A stretch of 35,284 bases of DNA. Origin: Frankia sp. R82 (GTDB lineage: Bacteria; Actinomycetota; Actinomycetes; Frankiales; Frankiaceae). A program made the position numbers and the translations under genes. The notes beneath the pieces were generated by a model, which ran no database searches, was not told the DNA's origin, and worked only from the letters and a program-made list of their open reading frames with translations. Numbering within the stretch: the first letter of the stretch is position 1; every line of letters starts with the position of its first letter. This document shows positions 63 to 22,735 of this stretch, piece by piece. Location of the stretch: NCBI RefSeq assembly GCF_023716925.1, contig NZ_JAMQQG010000295.1:1-35284 (forward strand). Reading direction: 5' to 3'.

Positions 63-315
63 ATGCCGGGGCCCTGGAAGCAACACCCTGACCGGGAAGC
101 CCAGTTCCGTTATCTGAACGAGCAGGTCGTCGACCATCAGAAAGCGGGCGAGCCGGTCATCAGCGTGGATGCAAAGAAGAAGGAGATGCTCGGCCAGCTC
201 CCGAACCCGGGCCGCGAATGGCGACCGAAAGGCGACCCCGTCCAGGTTGAGGATCACAGTTTCTTCACCGGCCCCCAAGGCGAGACCGCCATCCCCTACG
301 GCGTCTATGACTTAG
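63..315 (+). pseudogene. ISAzo13-family transposase fragment
   Basis: The translated segment contains QHPDREAQFRYLNEQV, VISVDAKKKE, GREWRPKGDP and IPYGVYDL. These are the conserved block around the first catalytic Asp (VISVD) of ISAzo13-family (Rhodopirellula-type) DDE transposases. Only about 80 codons of a protein normally several hundred residues long remain. An in-frame stop lies just upstream of position 63, and the 3' side is cut by the IS701-family element that starts at 316. The ATG at 63 is only the first Met in the surviving frame and is not a credible native start. This is a dead remnant that served as target for a later insertion. Bases 1-62 hold nothing I can identify. Confidence 0.8.
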
Positions 316-640
316 TACTGCAACGGCACTTGGCTGTGTCCGCGTTGTTTGTAGTGGGAGCGTCGGGCCTGGTGTTGGCGGCGTCGGCGCCAGGCCGACC
401 AGGCCCAGACGAAGTCGGCCGGGTGGACGCGGTGGAGCAGGGTGGCGATCAGCCGGCGGATCTCGGGTAGGGTCAGTCCGATCATGCCCATGCCGGCGGG
501 TGGGGGTCCCCCTTTACCTGGCTGGCGCGAGCGGCGGCCAGCGCGGCGTAGGCCAGCATCGACAGGGTGATGTGGGCGTACCAGGCCCGGTAGTCCCGGA
601 CCTGGTAGTCATCCAGGCCGCAGGTCTGTTTCGCCTGCTG
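312..640 (-). CDS. IS701-family transposase, 3' exon with apparent -1 frameshift
   Basis: The exon begins CAG CAG GCG AAA and gives QQAKQTCGLDDYQVRDYRAW, then YAHITLSMLAYAAL. This is the expected IS701 continuation after RWPIEECF. In the zero frame it ends early at the TGA at 482-484, after 52 residues. A -1 shift at A AAG GGG (515-509) opens a further 65 codons, including LTLPEIRRLIATLL, WAWSAWRRRRQHQARR and SHYKQRG, which resemble the usual IS701 C-terminus. That reading frame ends at TAA (314-312), which lies in the target tetranucleotide outside the element. The spliced, frameshifted product would be about 439 residues, a normal family length. The shift could be programmed, or it could be a one-base indel that breaks the gene. 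Confidence 0.72.
316..332 (+). repeat. Left terminal inverted repeat of the IS701-family element
   Basis: TACTGCAACGGCACTTG is the exact reverse complement of 3876-3892. It lies at the transposase 3' end and encodes the last residues of the frameshifted C-terminus (QVPLQY). Confidence 0.85.
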
Positions 641-681
641 GTCGGGTAGCGGGGACGCATTGCTGCGTCCCCGCCCCCTCA

Positions 682-715
682 GAACCGTGCGGGCCCGTTT
701 CCGAGCACACGGCTC
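682..715 (-). ncRNA. Group II intron domain V
   Basis: On the minus strand a 34-nt hairpin runs from GAGCCGTGTGC through a GGAAAC-type loop region to GCACGGTTC. It contains the AGC catalytic triad and the conserved closing pairs of domain V. It sits directly downstream of the maturase stop. Domain VI follows at 641-680 with a perfect 11-bp stem (GCGGGGACGCA) capped by GCAA. Confidence 0.88.
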
Positions 716-2264
716 AAGCAAACCCGATGGAGTCGCGGGCGTGCAGAATTGCCGGTCCGTGTCTGCGGCGTCGTCCGACCCAATATCCGGTCAGGGTGGG
801 GTCGTCTACCGACGCGTTGCCCTTGACCAGGTGGTGTCGGACGATCCTGGTCCAGGAGAATTTGGTGAGGTAGTGGCCGCTCTCGCGGTCACCGAAGACC
901 CACCGGTCTCTCCGGGATTTGTTGAACATGCCGAAGTAGCGTGCGGTGATCCAGCGCTTCGACTTGTTCGGGTGCGTGTGGACCGCCCATTTATAGACGA
1001 GTTTCCACATGTATGCGTCCAGCCCATGGAAGGTGCGGCTGGACACCACGCCCCGGTAGTAGGCGGCCCAACCTCGGATGATCGGATTGAGCCTTCGTAT
1101 CACCGCCGCGGCGTTGGCCCCTCGCAGGGCCTTCATCTCGGCGGCCAGCCTTTTGCGGAGACGTCGCACCGCGTCCGCGCTCGGCCTGATCAGCAGCAGC
1201 GTTCCGTCGCGGTAGCGTCGGACGTTGAACCCGAGGAAGTCACAGCCTTCCCGCAGATGGACGATCCGTGTCTTTTCCGCGTTGAAGACTAGCCCTCGCG
1301 GCTCTAGCCATGCGGCCAGCCGTGCCTGAACCTGTGCGCTTTCTTCCTGCGTGTGCGTGAAGACGAGCAGGTCATCGGCGTATCTGATCAATATCGGGGA
1401 GCCGGCCCTTGTCTCACCGGCATGTGAGCCGGCGGTGAAGTACCGGACCCCGGCGGCCGATTCCATCCCGTGGAGGGCAATGTTGAGTAGGAGGGGACTG
1501 ATCGTACCACCTTGAGGGGTTCCCTCCGGGGTAGCGGTGAACAGTTCATTCTCAACGGCTCCGGATTTTAGCCATCCGGAGATCATTCGTCGGCCGGGAA
1601 ACCCGCCCAGCATCTCCATGAGGTGATCGTGATCGATGCAGTCGAATGCGGCCGTAAGGTCCGCGTCGAGTACCCAAGGGCGCCTCGGGTTCTTTCCGTG
1701 CGCCACTCTGAATACTGCCTGGATCGCGTCCTGGCATCCTCTCCCGGGTCTGAAGCCGTAGGATTTCGGCTCAAACCGGGCTTCCCACTCGGGCTCCAGA
1801 GCGTTGACCGTCCTGGATTGCAGGACTCGGTCAACGATGACAGGAATTCCGAGCGGGCGCCGTTTTCTTTTGCCCTTCGGGATGTGGACCCGTCGGACGG
1901 GCTTGGGCTTCCACGAGGCGGACTGGTGCTGGACCCAGGTGGCCAGATCGGCCTTGGCTCCAGGAGTGAGCACCACCTGCCCGTCGACGCCCGCCGTCCG
2001 GCGACCAGCGTTGATCTCCGTCACCCGCCGCACGCTGACCAGCGTGTTGCTGCGGCAGCGGAGCATCAGTTTCTGCAGGTTACGGACCTTCTTCAGGTCA
2101 CCTGCCTGCGACGCCGCGAAGATGCGTTGACGTAGACGACGTACGTTCTCCTCGGCAGCAGACCAGTCGATCTCCTGCCACCGGAGGCCGTCTTCCGGTC
2201 CGTTCACCGGGCCGCTTGGCGGCCTGGTGTCCAACGTGCCCTTCAGCTCCATTGTCCTCGCCAT
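714..2264 (-). CDS. ltrA: Group II intron reverse transcriptase/maturase (516 aa)
   Basis: This intron-encoded protein helps its RNA fold and splice, and reverse-transcribes the intron at new DNA sites. RT blocks are visible: RRVHIPKGKRKRRPLGIP (about 124-141), SYGFRPGRGCQDAI (RT2), VLDADLTAAFDCIDH (RT3), GTPQGGTISPLLLNI (RT4) and the catalytic RYADDLLVF (RT5, about 294-302). The maturase X domain follows (RRLNPIIRGWAAYYRGVV), then the DNA-binding region (SWTRIVRHHLVKGNAS). The protein ends soon after YWVGRRRR, where many relatives continue into a Cys-rich HNH endonuclease, so it is probably endonuclease-minus. The TGA at 716-714 overlaps the first bases of domain V. The gene is intact. The symbol is the generic family name. 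Confidence 0.93.
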   Translation of the reverse strand: MARTMELKGTLDTRPPSGPVNGPEDGLRWQEIDWSAAEENVRRLRQRIFAASQAGDLKKVRNLQKLMLRCRSNTLVSVRRVTEINAGRRTAGVDGQVVLTPGAKADLATWVQHQSASWKPKPVRRVHIPKGKRKRRPLGIPVIVDRVLQSRTVNALEPEWEARFEPKSYGFRPGRGCQDAIQAVFRVAHGKNPRRPWVLDADLTAAFDCIDHDHLMEMLGGFPGRRMISGWLKSGAVENELFTATPEGTPQGGTISPLLLNIALHGMESAAGVRYFTAGSHAGETRAGSPILIRYADDLLVFTHTQEESAQVQARLAAWLEPRGLVFNAEKTRIVHLREGCDFLGFNVRRYRDGTLLLIRPSADAVRRLRKRLAAEMKALRGANAAAVIRRLNPIIRGWAAYYRGVVSSRTFHGLDAYMWKLVYKWAVHTHPNKSKRWITARYFGMFNKSRRDRWVFGDRESGHYLTKFSWTRIVRHHLVKGNASVDDPTLTGYWVGRRRRHGPAILHARDSIGFA

Positions 2265-2566
2265 CGTCCTCTTCGCAGGCTCACCTGACCCACGTCAGCG
2301 CCCTTCCAGGCCGAGACATCTGCCCCTATCCGGCCAGTTATACGGAACGTTGCTACCCGTTCCGGTTTCCTGTTTCCTTTCGGCTGCCGGCATTCGCTTC
2401 TTGGGTCATCCTGTTCCTGCCAGGGAGTTGAGCCTTCCTTACGGTTGGCCTACCCGGCGCCTGTCCGCGTCGGGACCCTTTCAGGGTTTCCACGTTCTGC
2501 ATGAGTGAGACACGAGCGGGATGGGTGCCCCCTCTACCCCGGGACGGCGGTGCTCTCCCGGCCGAC

Positions 2567-2572
2567 TGCTTC
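2567..2572 (-). other. Candidate EBS1 of the group II intron
   Basis: GAAGCA lies about 300 nt into the intron and is fully complementary to TGCTTC, the last six bases of the 5' exon (2876-2871). A candidate EBS2 (CCTCG, 2656-2652) lies 84 nt upstream and pairs with CGAGG in the exon. The position and order are as expected for domain I. The loop structures were not folded computationally. Confidence 0.6.
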
Positions 2573-2870
2573 TCTCCGACCGGCGCCTGCCGCTTTCCAG
2601 CGGCCAGTCCTGCACCCCGCTGAAACATCCCATCTGCGAGGCTCGAAGTTACGAGGCATAGTCAAGGGTTCATTCGCATTCACCCGTCCACTCTTCCCCT
2701 TGCCTGTAACCCCCGGATGGAACGAGAGTCCTTGGGCTTTTCCCCTGGGCTCCGCACCCCCCTGTTACCAGGGACGCACGCCAAGGCGGGGACAGGCCCT
2801 GAACACTGGCCCGGAACTCCATCTTCTCCTCTCGACGAGTCCACTCGACTCAAGCAGCCTCGTGTCGCAC

Positions 2871-3860
2871 GAAGCATTCCTCGATCGGCCAGCGGGCCCC
2901 GGCCACCACCGCGAGCCGCGCGAGGCTGGTCCGCCGGGGCCCGTAGCAGACGTAGAACGCCAGCTCACCGCTGGTCCGGTGGCGCCGGGCGAGCAGCCAG
3001 TGCCCCCACCCCGGCTCCCAGAAGGCCCGGACCCGGATCTCGACCCGTGCCCAGTCGTAGTCCCGCAACCCGTGCGCACCCGGACCGGCCGAGATCCGAC
3101 ACCACACCCGCGCGGGCAGCGCGGCGATCAGCTCGTCGACGCGTCCGTCCCCACCCGAGGCGGTGATCACGGTGTCGTTGCGTTTCGTGGCCAGCACATG
3201 CGCCCGTCTGCGCTCCTCCAGCCAGACCCGCAGGTACTTCGCTTGCCCGTAGGCCTCGTCCGCGGTCACCCAGCCGAACGGCACCCCGGCCTCGATCGCC
3301 CGTTCCAGCATGGCGATCGCCTGCCGGGGCTTGGTGGCGAACTCGACCTCGTCCGGGATCCCCGCCGCCCGGCAGCGGTCCCGATCGTCGGTCCAGGACT
3401 CGGGCAGGTACAGCTCCCGGTCGATCAGCGCATGCCCCCACCGGGACCGGTAGGCCAGGAACGTCCCGATCTGGCAGTTCTCCGTCCGCCCCGCCGTCCC
3501 CGAGTACTGCCGCTGCACGCCGGCGGACCGGGTCCCCTTCTTCAGGAAGCCGGTGTCATCGACGATCAGGACCGCGTCCGGGTCCCCGAGCCGGTCGACC
3601 ACATGACCACGGACATCGTCACGGACGCCGTCGACGTCCGAGTCCGCGCGGCGCAGCAACCGCTGCATCCCGTCCGGTGATCGCTCCCCGGCACGCTCCG
3701 CCAGCGTCCACCCGTTCTTCCGCTCCAGGCCCGCGACCAGCCCGGACACATACTCCCCGACCCGCCGCCGCGGCTCCGTGCGACCGAACCGGCCCCCGAT
3801 CCGCCCACAGAGATCATCCAGTTCGGTCGCCCATGCCTCCACCACCACAACCCGGATCAT
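2871..3860 (-). CDS. IS701-family transposase, 5' exon (330 codons)
   Basis: This exon encodes the N-terminal part and the catalytic core of a DDE transposase. The first acidic residue lies in VLIVDDTGF (about residue 101), the second in GWVTADEAYG (about 201), and the catalytic Glu in RWPIEECF (about 327-328). The exon stops at F330 because the next base on the minus strand (2870) begins GTGCGAC, the 5' end of a group II intron. Without splicing, translation continues only five codons (VRHEA and so on) before a stop. The ATG at 3860 follows an in-frame TGA and a GGTGGTGG stretch, so it is the earliest usable start. The protein cuts and pastes the element at YTAR sites. If the intron is not removed, the transposase lacks its C-terminal region. 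Confidence 0.88.
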
Positions 3861-3875
3861 CCACCACCGGCATCA

Positions 3876-3892
3876 CAAGTGCCGTTGCAGTA
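3876..3892 (-). repeat. Right terminal inverted repeat of the IS701-family element
   Basis: CAAGTGCCGTTGCAGTA is the exact inverse of 316-332. It ends 16 bp upstream of the transposase ATG at 3860 (minus strand) and is followed by CTAG, a YTAR-type target tetranucleotide. Confidence 0.85.
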
Positions 3893-4126
3893 CTAGTGCC
3901 TACGAAGCGCCCAGGGCACCGAGGCGAGTCGACCAGGACGTCGAAGACGACGGCCAGATGCCCAGACGAGGTTCTTGACCCTCAGAGTCCCGACCCGCGC
4001 CGTCATGGGCTGGTCTCAGGCGCGCCGATCTGGTCGGCAGCCTGCTCTGGCGACCTCGACCTCGGATGACGTGGTGGACGACGGAGCGGCCGACGTCCTG
4101 GCTCCGACGGGGTAGCGGGGACGCCT

Positions 4127-4174
4127 ACTGAGACCAGGACTGAGACCAGGACTGAGACCAGGACTGAGACCAGA
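4127..4174 (+). repeat. 12-bp tandem repeat, four copies
   Basis: ACTGAGACCAGG is repeated head to tail without mismatch at 4127, 4139, 4151 and 4163, with the last base of the fourth copy changed. It lies in the noncoding stretch between the IS701-family element and the tRNA-Phe remnant. Apart from this repeat I see nothing coding between 3893 and 4173. Confidence 0.9.
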
Positions 4175-4202: not shown

Positions 4203-4222
4203 GTCTTGCCTGCTTAGAAGAG

Positions 4223-4270
4223 TGGGCAGGGGCGGGGTCGAACCGCCGACCTTCCGCTTTTCAGGCGGAC
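4223..4270 (-). pseudogene. tRNA-Phe (GAA) 3' half; attachment-site-like
   Basis: Read on the minus strand this is the 3' part of a tRNA-Phe. The anticodon stem is TCCGC/GCGGA around the loop CTGAAAA (anticodon GAA). It is followed by variable loop AGGTC, T-stem GGCGG/CCGCC with loop TTCGACC, acceptor strand CCTGCCC and discriminator A. The D-arm and the 5' acceptor strand are absent: homology stops at the 5' edge of the anticodon stem (about 4270). A tRNA duplicated from the anticodon to the 3' end is the classic product of integration by tyrosine recombinases. The native terminator still follows it. No complete tRNA-Phe or integrase gene lies in the window. Confidence 0.8.
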
Positions 4271-4564
4271 GGATGGTGCGATGTCATCCCAGCCCCGGGC
4301 CAGCTGGTCGCGAACCTCGGCGGCCTGCTCGCCCGGTGGACCATCGACCGTTGGACGTCCACCCCGCACCGCGTCCTACCTGCGACGGCGATGGCGCGGC
4401 GTAGTGTTGCCCACTTCGTTGGCGCCTACCCCGGCGCCCGGATGGAACCGGTCTCCACCTGCGTCGATGTCGACCATCCGCCGCACTTTGCCCCGGTGCT
4501 CGCCGACGACTGGCTGGCTGCCCGCACCCGCCGCCAGCGGGCCGCGGGAACGCGCCCGTCCTGA
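4271..4564 (+). pseudogene. 3' remnant of a 2-oxoglutarate/Fe(II) oxygenase (isopenicillin N synthase-like)
   Basis: One frame reads GWCDVIPAPGQLVANLGGLL, then ARWTIDRWTSTPHRVLPA, ARRSVAHFVGAYPGARMEPV and APVLADDWLAARTRR before TGA at 4562. This matches the C-terminal part of isopenicillin-N-synthase-type dioxygenases. There, the NxGD(L)xxRWTNDRWxSTxHRV block carries the distal Fe ligand His, and a later Arg-Xaa-Ser binds 2-oxoglutarate (here RRSVAHF). The N-terminal two thirds, with the HxD ligands, are missing. The homology begins exactly where the tRNA-Phe fragment ends, so a recombination breakpoint created the truncation. The original enzyme's substrate cannot be inferred. Confidence 0.65.
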
Positions 4565-22609: not shown

Positions 22610-22735
22610 GTATCGGGTCGGCACTTGCCGTCGGCTGGTCGCCGCGGCCCTGTCGTCACCCGGGGCACCCCGCTGCGGGAGGAGGGTTGCCGGCCAGCAA
22701 GCCGGGGCTTGAACGCTGGCGCTCAGGACAGTGAC
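22610..22735 (-). promoter_or_regulatory. SAM-IV riboswitch
   Basis: On the minus strand the leader reads CTGTCCTGAGCGCCAGCG, then CAAGCCCCGGCTTGCTGG, CCGGCAACCCTCC, GCGGGGTGCCCCGGGTGACG and ACAG. This is nearly the actinobacterial SAM-IV consensus, including the CCGGCAACC core shared with SAM-I. P1 can form between CTGTC (22731-22727) and GACAG. A downstream hairpin with CGGCAAGTGCCG matches the 3' pseudoknot region. It sits 20-140 nt upstream of the class V PLP enzyme gene and should lower its expression when S-adenosylmethionine is plentiful. The region 22736-22993 shows nothing else. Confidence 0.87.

Follow-up and report, generated by a model that had tools for sequence, protein, structure and literature searches.

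Group II introns that interrupt the transposase genes of insertion sequences (ISs) are already known from other bacteria. RmInt1 of Sinorhizobium meliloti, an endonuclease-minus (En-minus) intron, interrupts and homes to the transposase gene of ISRm2011-2, and it is described also from closely related IS elements, the stop codons in the intron making splicing necessary for the transposase (PMC4238363, PMC5894124). Its correct splicing in vivo is reported at <1%, and its authors conclude from this that the intron holds the IS in check (PMC4238363); replication-fork priming has been reported for it (PMC8914252). In Escherichia coli, E.c.I4 is described at specific positions in IS3-like transposases (IS629, IS911, ISEc16, ISEc31), with occupied and free sites counted, and IS targeting by introns is presented there as a widely used strategy (PMC3522654). 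The IStrons, too, combine a ribozyme intron with an IS (PMC4227781). We describe here a further case: the window, i.e., the whole stretch of 35,284 nt from Frankia sp. R82 (contig NZ_JAMQQG010000295.1), holds a group II intron inside the transposase gene of an IS701-family element, and comparison with related loci makes it very likely that this intron is mobile and homes to the active-site motif in transposases of this family.

The Frankia intron is like RmInt1 in that it has no endonuclease segment and lies inside a transposase gene; unlike RmInt1, which is a class D intron with an IS630-family host in a proteobacterium, it occupies an IS701 element and belongs to an actinobacterial clade whose members mostly carry an endonuclease pattern. 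With E.c.I4 it shares the occurrence of very similar introns in different IS elements of one family, but both the IS family and the host phylum are others. It is also unlike the IStrons: those are group I introns with the IS as part of the element, whereas the Frankia intron is of group II and is nested within the transposase gene. The nearest solved reverse transcriptase (RT) to that of the Frankia intron is 6me0, presumably T.el4h of T. elongatus. Among the titles and abstract beginnings listed from the open-licence literature, none describes this lineage of group II introns at an IS701 site, and in the main text of a paper on En-minus introns (PMC3552965) the words Streptomyces, Frankia and transposase are all absent.

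The intron and its IS701-family host

The features on which the argument rests are given below; L numbers denote loci found in our searches, EBS1 and IBS1 are exon-binding site 1 and intron-binding site 1, respectively.

316..3892, minus strand: IS701-family IS holding the intron, with 17-bp inverted repeats at 316-332 and 3876-3892 (17/17)
312-315 and 3893-3896: target-site tetranucleotide, TTAG on one side and CTAG on the other, both YTAR, not identical
2871..3860, minus strand: exon 1, transposase residues 1-330, ending ...RWPIEECF (NF033540)
2871..2876, minus strand: IBS1, TGCTTC, 6/6 pairs with EBS1
641..2870, minus strand: group II intron, 2,230 nt (Rfam match; empty sites in L101 and L102)
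2567..2572, minus strand: EBS1, GAAGCA, intron positions 299-304, upstream of the RT gene and in domain I by position
714..2264, minus strand: intron-encoded RT/maturase, 516 aa, YADD present, without an HNH-type endonuclease segment
682..715, minus strand: domain V (Rfam, fold), its first bases overlapped by the RT stop codon
641..681, minus strand: domain VI with linkers, bulged A at 647 as presumed branch point
485..640, minus strand: exon 2, frame 0, from QQAKQTCGLDDYQ... to ...PPAWA, stop codon at 482-484
Insertion junction in the target: GAGGAATGCTTC / CAG, with the IBS1 TGCTTC directly before CAG

The intron starts with GTGCG at 2870, which fits GUGYG, and ends at 641, and the full RF00029 model of Rfam matches 717-641 (minus strand) with 59.7 bits (gathering score 40, E 1.8e-9). 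The predicted fold of domains V and VI has -53.8 kcal/mol (z -6.7) and leaves one bulged A, seven bases before the 3' end; the RT contains RVT_1, RVT_N and GIIM (Pfam) and scores 308.1 bits with TIGR04416 against a cut-off of 300. On the host side, exon 1 matches NF033540 (IS701 transposase) with 380.4 bits (cut-off 150) over profile positions 1-326 of 363, and exon 2 matches positions 326-363 of the same profile with 51.7 bits; the two exon profiles meet at position 326, thus the transposase halves join without loss.

Empty sites and the point of insertion

The same IS without the intron is found in L101 and L102, which come from two other genomes of the same family; both are 88-89% identical to the joined Frankia flanks, and their alignment has no gap at the junction. 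From repeat to repeat (one of its repeats has one mismatch) L101 spans 1,347 bp, which is the size of the Frankia IS, 3,577 bp over the same stretch, once the 2,230 nt of the intron are subtracted. A family search added 21 further IS701 loci, in 14 of which the motif was seen (11 by a first pattern, L108, L117 and L120 by a wider one, seven loci having no visible motif), and it is uninterrupted in 14/14. At the first 11 of these empty loci the site pairs with EBS1, G-U allowed, at 6/6 in ten and at 4/6 in one. Streptomyces sp. V4I2 also carries two intron-free IS701 copies, whose sites pair only 3/6 with EBS1.

The break falls after WPIEECF, inside an R(3)E(6)K motif of which R323, E327, F330 and K334 (numbering of the sister transposase) are invariant in an alignment of 12 IS701 transposases. 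This spacing is that of the YREK motif of Tn5. No solved relative of the transposase was found by profile search; a structural model of the L101 sister transposase, of middling confidence (mean predicted local distance difference test score, pLDDT, 65.8), has Tn5 transposase as its top structural match (E 1.9e-9, probability 1.00). It follows that the intron separates the Glu of the motif, presumably catalytic, from its Lys.

An earlier note on this DNA, made by reading the sequence, had placed the intron directly past WPIEECF in the catalytic core, had listed GTGCG, a 6-bp EBS1-IBS1 pairing, domain V, a bulged A in domain VI and an RT as present, and had expected the homing site to be conserved in sister ISs. 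The position is now base-exact by NF033540 and the empty sites, every listed part was recovered (RF00029, fold, Pfam), and L101 and L102 are empty at the exact junction. Its further statement that the exons rejoin without frame change holds at the junction, where the profile halves meet, and is to be refined for the later C-terminus, which lies in the -1 frame:

312..485, minus strand: C-terminal transposase segment MIGLTLPEIRRL..., -1 frame, ATGA overlap with the frame-0 stop
509..517, minus strand: possible slippage site GTA AAG GGG, upstream of the -1 frame

The arrangement is also present in the intron-free sisters L101 and L102, and because these share the same break, damage to the Frankia copy was rejected as its cause. 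A programmed -1 frameshift or a coupled re-start is possible. Counterparts of the slippage site read GTA AAA GGG in L101 and L102, CAA AAG GGG in L105 and GAA AAG GGG in L020; L021 has none. Over the region 312-517 of the IS701 transposase, an A-run and then GGGG precede the ATGA overlap. The C-terminal segment ends at a stop codon (TAA here, TAG in L101) that belongs to the YTAR target tetranucleotide rather than to the IS itself. IS701-family elements as a rule duplicate 4 bp of their target, and the tetranucleotides of sister ISs, left and right, are CTAG/CTAG in L101 and CTAA/CTAA in L103. The left flank, 63-314, matches part of an ISAzo13-family transposase (E 1.3e-29) and is cut off at the IS701 end.

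Filled sites and probable movement between IS701 elements

Relatives of the RT were taken from a scan of 84,980 species genomes, which gave 294, and the best 80 were kept (L020-L099). The three nearest, L020, L021 and L022 from two Streptomycetaceae genomes, are 77-78% identical to the Frankia RT, and the same IS701 codon is broken in 3/3 of them (4/4 counting the Frankia intron); the outcome that would have refuted the earlier note, i.e., introns at unrelated positions in other genomes, did not occur among these three. Among these best 80 of the 294, only the RTs of L020-L022 split an IS701 transposase (found with the Frankia exons), the IS701 pieces near the RTs of L037 and L040 not being split by those RTs. 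The RTs of Frankia and L020-L022 form one clade (Shimodaira-Hasegawa-like approximate likelihood ratio test, SH-aLRT, 100) in a quick tree that does not include L035, L075 and other rows that were truncated or duplicates. Among 393 genomes of the class, a single RT other than that of Frankia passed E 1e-220 (G040, 66% identity, 736 bits), and a search by pattern gave no second filled site; on plasmids the best RT among 40 listed has 68% identity.

L020 and L021 are two loci of one genome, that of Streptomyces sp. V4I2. Their introns are identical over 2,262 nt, in host transposases of 48% identity (204 columns) and between 150-nt exon flanks of 67% and 65% identity; likewise, the 5' part of the Frankia intron is 87% identical to that of L020, between exon flanks of 61% and 59%. 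A recent move of the intron between IS701 elements is strongly indicated by the L020/L021 comparison, and since the two copies lie in different IS elements, they would have moved as introns, not with the IS. One may object that the intron entered each IS by chance or through recombination between IS copies, without homing: IS copies readily recombine, and few members of the lineage are known. Recombination is, however, expected to carry flanks along, and here identical introns stand in 48%-identical transposases with flanks at 65-67%, at the same codon in 4/4 members, so that such an origin is very improbable in our judgement. The dnaA gene of V4I2 is at 5.557 Mb of a 10.66-Mb contig, with both introns left of it on the minus strand; in 2/2 the lagging-strand template should therefore be the sense strand of the intron, a number too small to mean much.

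Preservation of the intron and points against homing

The RT has a ratio of nonsynonymous to synonymous substitution rates (dN/dS) of 0.18-0.22 in three pairs. EBS1, read at one fixed alignment column, pairs with the intron's own IBS1 at a mean of 4.88 of 6 over 58 distinct introns (65 rows), with 5 or 6 pairs in 42/58, against a mean of 2.43 and a maximum of 2.88 in 2,000 shuffles of IBS1. In domain VI, both sides vary in 10 of the 14 pairs and 99.4% of the cells are paired (48 distinct sequences), and double-changed cells number 122 vs 33.8 in shuffles, in an alignment that contains rows of one form only (41 nt, TACCCG end) and leans towards structure. The 41 nt of domain VI differ at ten places between the Frankia intron and L020, and every one of these belongs to one of five compensated pairs. 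Purifying selection on the RT, EBS1-IBS1 pairing and covariation in domain VI together suggest a functional intron.

Several observations weigh against the homing reading, and we put them together here. Pairing of EBS1 is poor in L012 (0 of 6), L078 (1), L064 and L097 (2 each), L022 is filled though its IBS1 pairs 4/6 with EBS1, and a search for EBS2 gave no convincing site (best column, mean 3.05 of 5 pairs). The host transposases of L021 and L022 have no recognisable N-terminal part upstream of the intron: their alignments with Frankia exon 1 start at residues 124 and 187, respectively (in L020 at 7, running to 330), thus two of the three other hosts look N-terminally incomplete. Four lineage members were found in all, and the Frankia draft genome (6.9 Mb, 370 contigs) has one intron copy. 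The Frankia IS copy may, moreover, be rearranged, because TTAG and CTAG differ and the ISAzo13 piece of the left flank shows, by eye, no visible continuation on the right flank.

Unequal target tetranucleotides, unmatched flanks and the frame break in the transposase C-terminus could also be taken as signs that the IS is decaying and the Frankia copy in it dead. The frame break is, however, common to L101 and L102, the RT is open with YADD and pairwise dN/dS of about 0.2, domains V and VI are intact, and EBS1 and IBS1 pair at 6/6; we regard a dead remnant as improbable, and the Frankia intron is well preserved and very probably mobile.

Possible mechanism and consequence for the host element

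We infer splicing, reverse splicing and fork priming in the following course. The IS would be transcribed, and the RT/maturase would help the intron to splice out, whereby EECF is rejoined to QQAK. Together with the RT, the intron lariat would find its target, TGCTTC ahead of that same codon in a further IS701 copy, largely via EBS1, and reverse splicing into the sense strand would be followed by copying; because the RT has lost the HNH-type endonuclease segment, priming would probably come from the replication fork, as for RmInt1. Transposase production probably needs splicing, and for this reason the intron most likely behaves as a parasite and holds its host IS back; the IS may also transport it.

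The two elements might instead hitch-hike on each other: the intron would regularly travel with the IS, whose transposase would stay active through efficient splicing. That the exons rejoin without frame change, that the sister arrangement is preserved, that both inverted repeats are perfect and that the L020 transposase aligns over exon 1 residues 7-330 would all agree with it. It has to be reconciled, however, with the lack of a second intron-bearing IS copy in the genome (though a draft of 370 contigs can collapse repeats), with V4I2 copies that moved as introns, with hosts of L021 and L022 that show no recognisable N-terminal part, and with exon ligation at <1% in the RmInt1 precedent; we find it rather unlikely. 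The earlier note had proposed that the IS carries the intron to new sites, which one copy in the draft genome and the V4I2 copies in different IS elements do not bear out. It had also proposed that both elements spread: for the intron, homing between ISs is upheld by the comparison, whereas a benefit to the IS is at odds with RmInt1, the best-studied precedent.

Probable loss of the endonuclease segment

The RT tail carries a C..C...H pattern, i.e., that of an HNH-type endonuclease segment, in 73 of the 80 kept relatives. Please note that Pfam HNH was found in one of the six En-plus tails scanned (L071), the rest being judged by this loose pattern and some also by alignment to L071. The seven without the pattern are L020-L022, L035 and L075, whose frame stops within the RT, L082, whose frame departs in the tail, and L033, which has masked letters. 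In the Frankia RT and in L020-L022 the segment is missing and a similar last stretch is, by eye, seemingly kept; in the Frankia intron, L020 and L021 the RT stop codon runs into domain V. Among the 56 of 80 loci with both intron ends, 53 introns measure 2,486-2,572 nt and those of L020-L022 2,262-2,264 nt, as compared with 2,230 nt in Frankia. An assembly artefact was considered and rejected, as the same shortened end occurs in four sequences of three genomes. The sister group of the IS701-site clade is made up of L023, L025 and L026 (support 81 in the quick tree), in which the endonuclease pattern is kept; the codon position and the IBS1 of L023 and L025 differ from those of the IS701-site clade. 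The simplest reading of these sequences is that the endonuclease was lost once, in the ancestor of the IS701 lineage, and this loss is probably an independent one.

Host genes in the wider actinobacterial clade

Host genes were assigned from exon-1 peptides. Thirty were picked by eye, transposase-like ones first (L012 was taken on the wrong strand), and their counts are biased; a fuller scan used 111 peptides from every frame that is open over at least 35 codons, in which 67 loci qualified by their 5' end and 59 gave a peptide. This 59-locus scan yields tallies per family with members unnamed, and many of the 59 have no recognised host gene. Exon-1 matches stay below the whole-protein cut-off for L022 (IS701, 112.3 vs 150), both IS110 loci, L025, L071, L036 and L059. 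For IS630, the exon-1 profile breaks at 264-265 of 299 in L033, L035, L038, L045 and L093, loci that fall on at least two branches of the RT tree (which lacks L035). The break is at 288/332 for IS4 (L023, L025), at 60/343 for IS110 (L054, L065) and at 229/258 for IS5 (L071, L083), each of these pairs counting as one case because its introns are close relatives in the tree. IS1380, IS21 and ISAzo13 were added by the 59-locus scan, which gives, with IS701, IS630, IS4, IS110 and IS5, at least eight IS families.

In L029, L035, L038, L045 and L093 the transposase is broken directly before the Glu of SW(L/M)N..E; these hosts are IS630 by NCBIfam, L029 being DDE_3 by Pfam, and L033 ends alike, judged from exon 1 only. 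L023 and L025 adjoin an RW..E motif of an IS4-family transposase. For the families other than IS701, these insertion points are presumed to be active-site motifs. There are non-transposase hosts as well: L067 (Actinoplanes, at 3359) and L068 (Actinomadura, at 401) are broken at GSG/GYN, the L067 host matching methyltransferase models and L068 being assigned by its peptide, and the intron of L040 is set into the RT gene of a different group II intron, at PQGG/VVSPL (junction 688/3208). A liking for transposase motifs throughout the clade is probable. More tentatively, and with somewhat less than even confidence, we suggest that the actinobacterial clade as a whole specialised on DNA transposons, reaching at least eight IS families through changes in EBS1 and using active-site codons repeatedly, and that the IS701 lineage then lost the endonuclease. 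Active-site codons may serve as such targets because they cannot drift without killing the IS.

Other features of the window

Three further features were observed:

4222-4300: tRNA-like match adjoining the IS (tRNA-Phe gaa by ARAGORN, 36.6 bits in Rfam)
4127-4173: perfect 12-base tandem repeat near the IS
22616-22730, minus strand: SAM-IV riboswitch, 92.2 bits

Significance

The IS701-site introns offer a natural experiment, with filled and empty sites of the same IS and with identical introns in divergent hosts of one genome, and in them a lineage without the endonuclease segment stands beside relatives that have it. Two questions become testable here: do such introns hold their host transposons back or assist them, and are active-site codons favoured as homing sites because they are the ones least able to escape by mutation?

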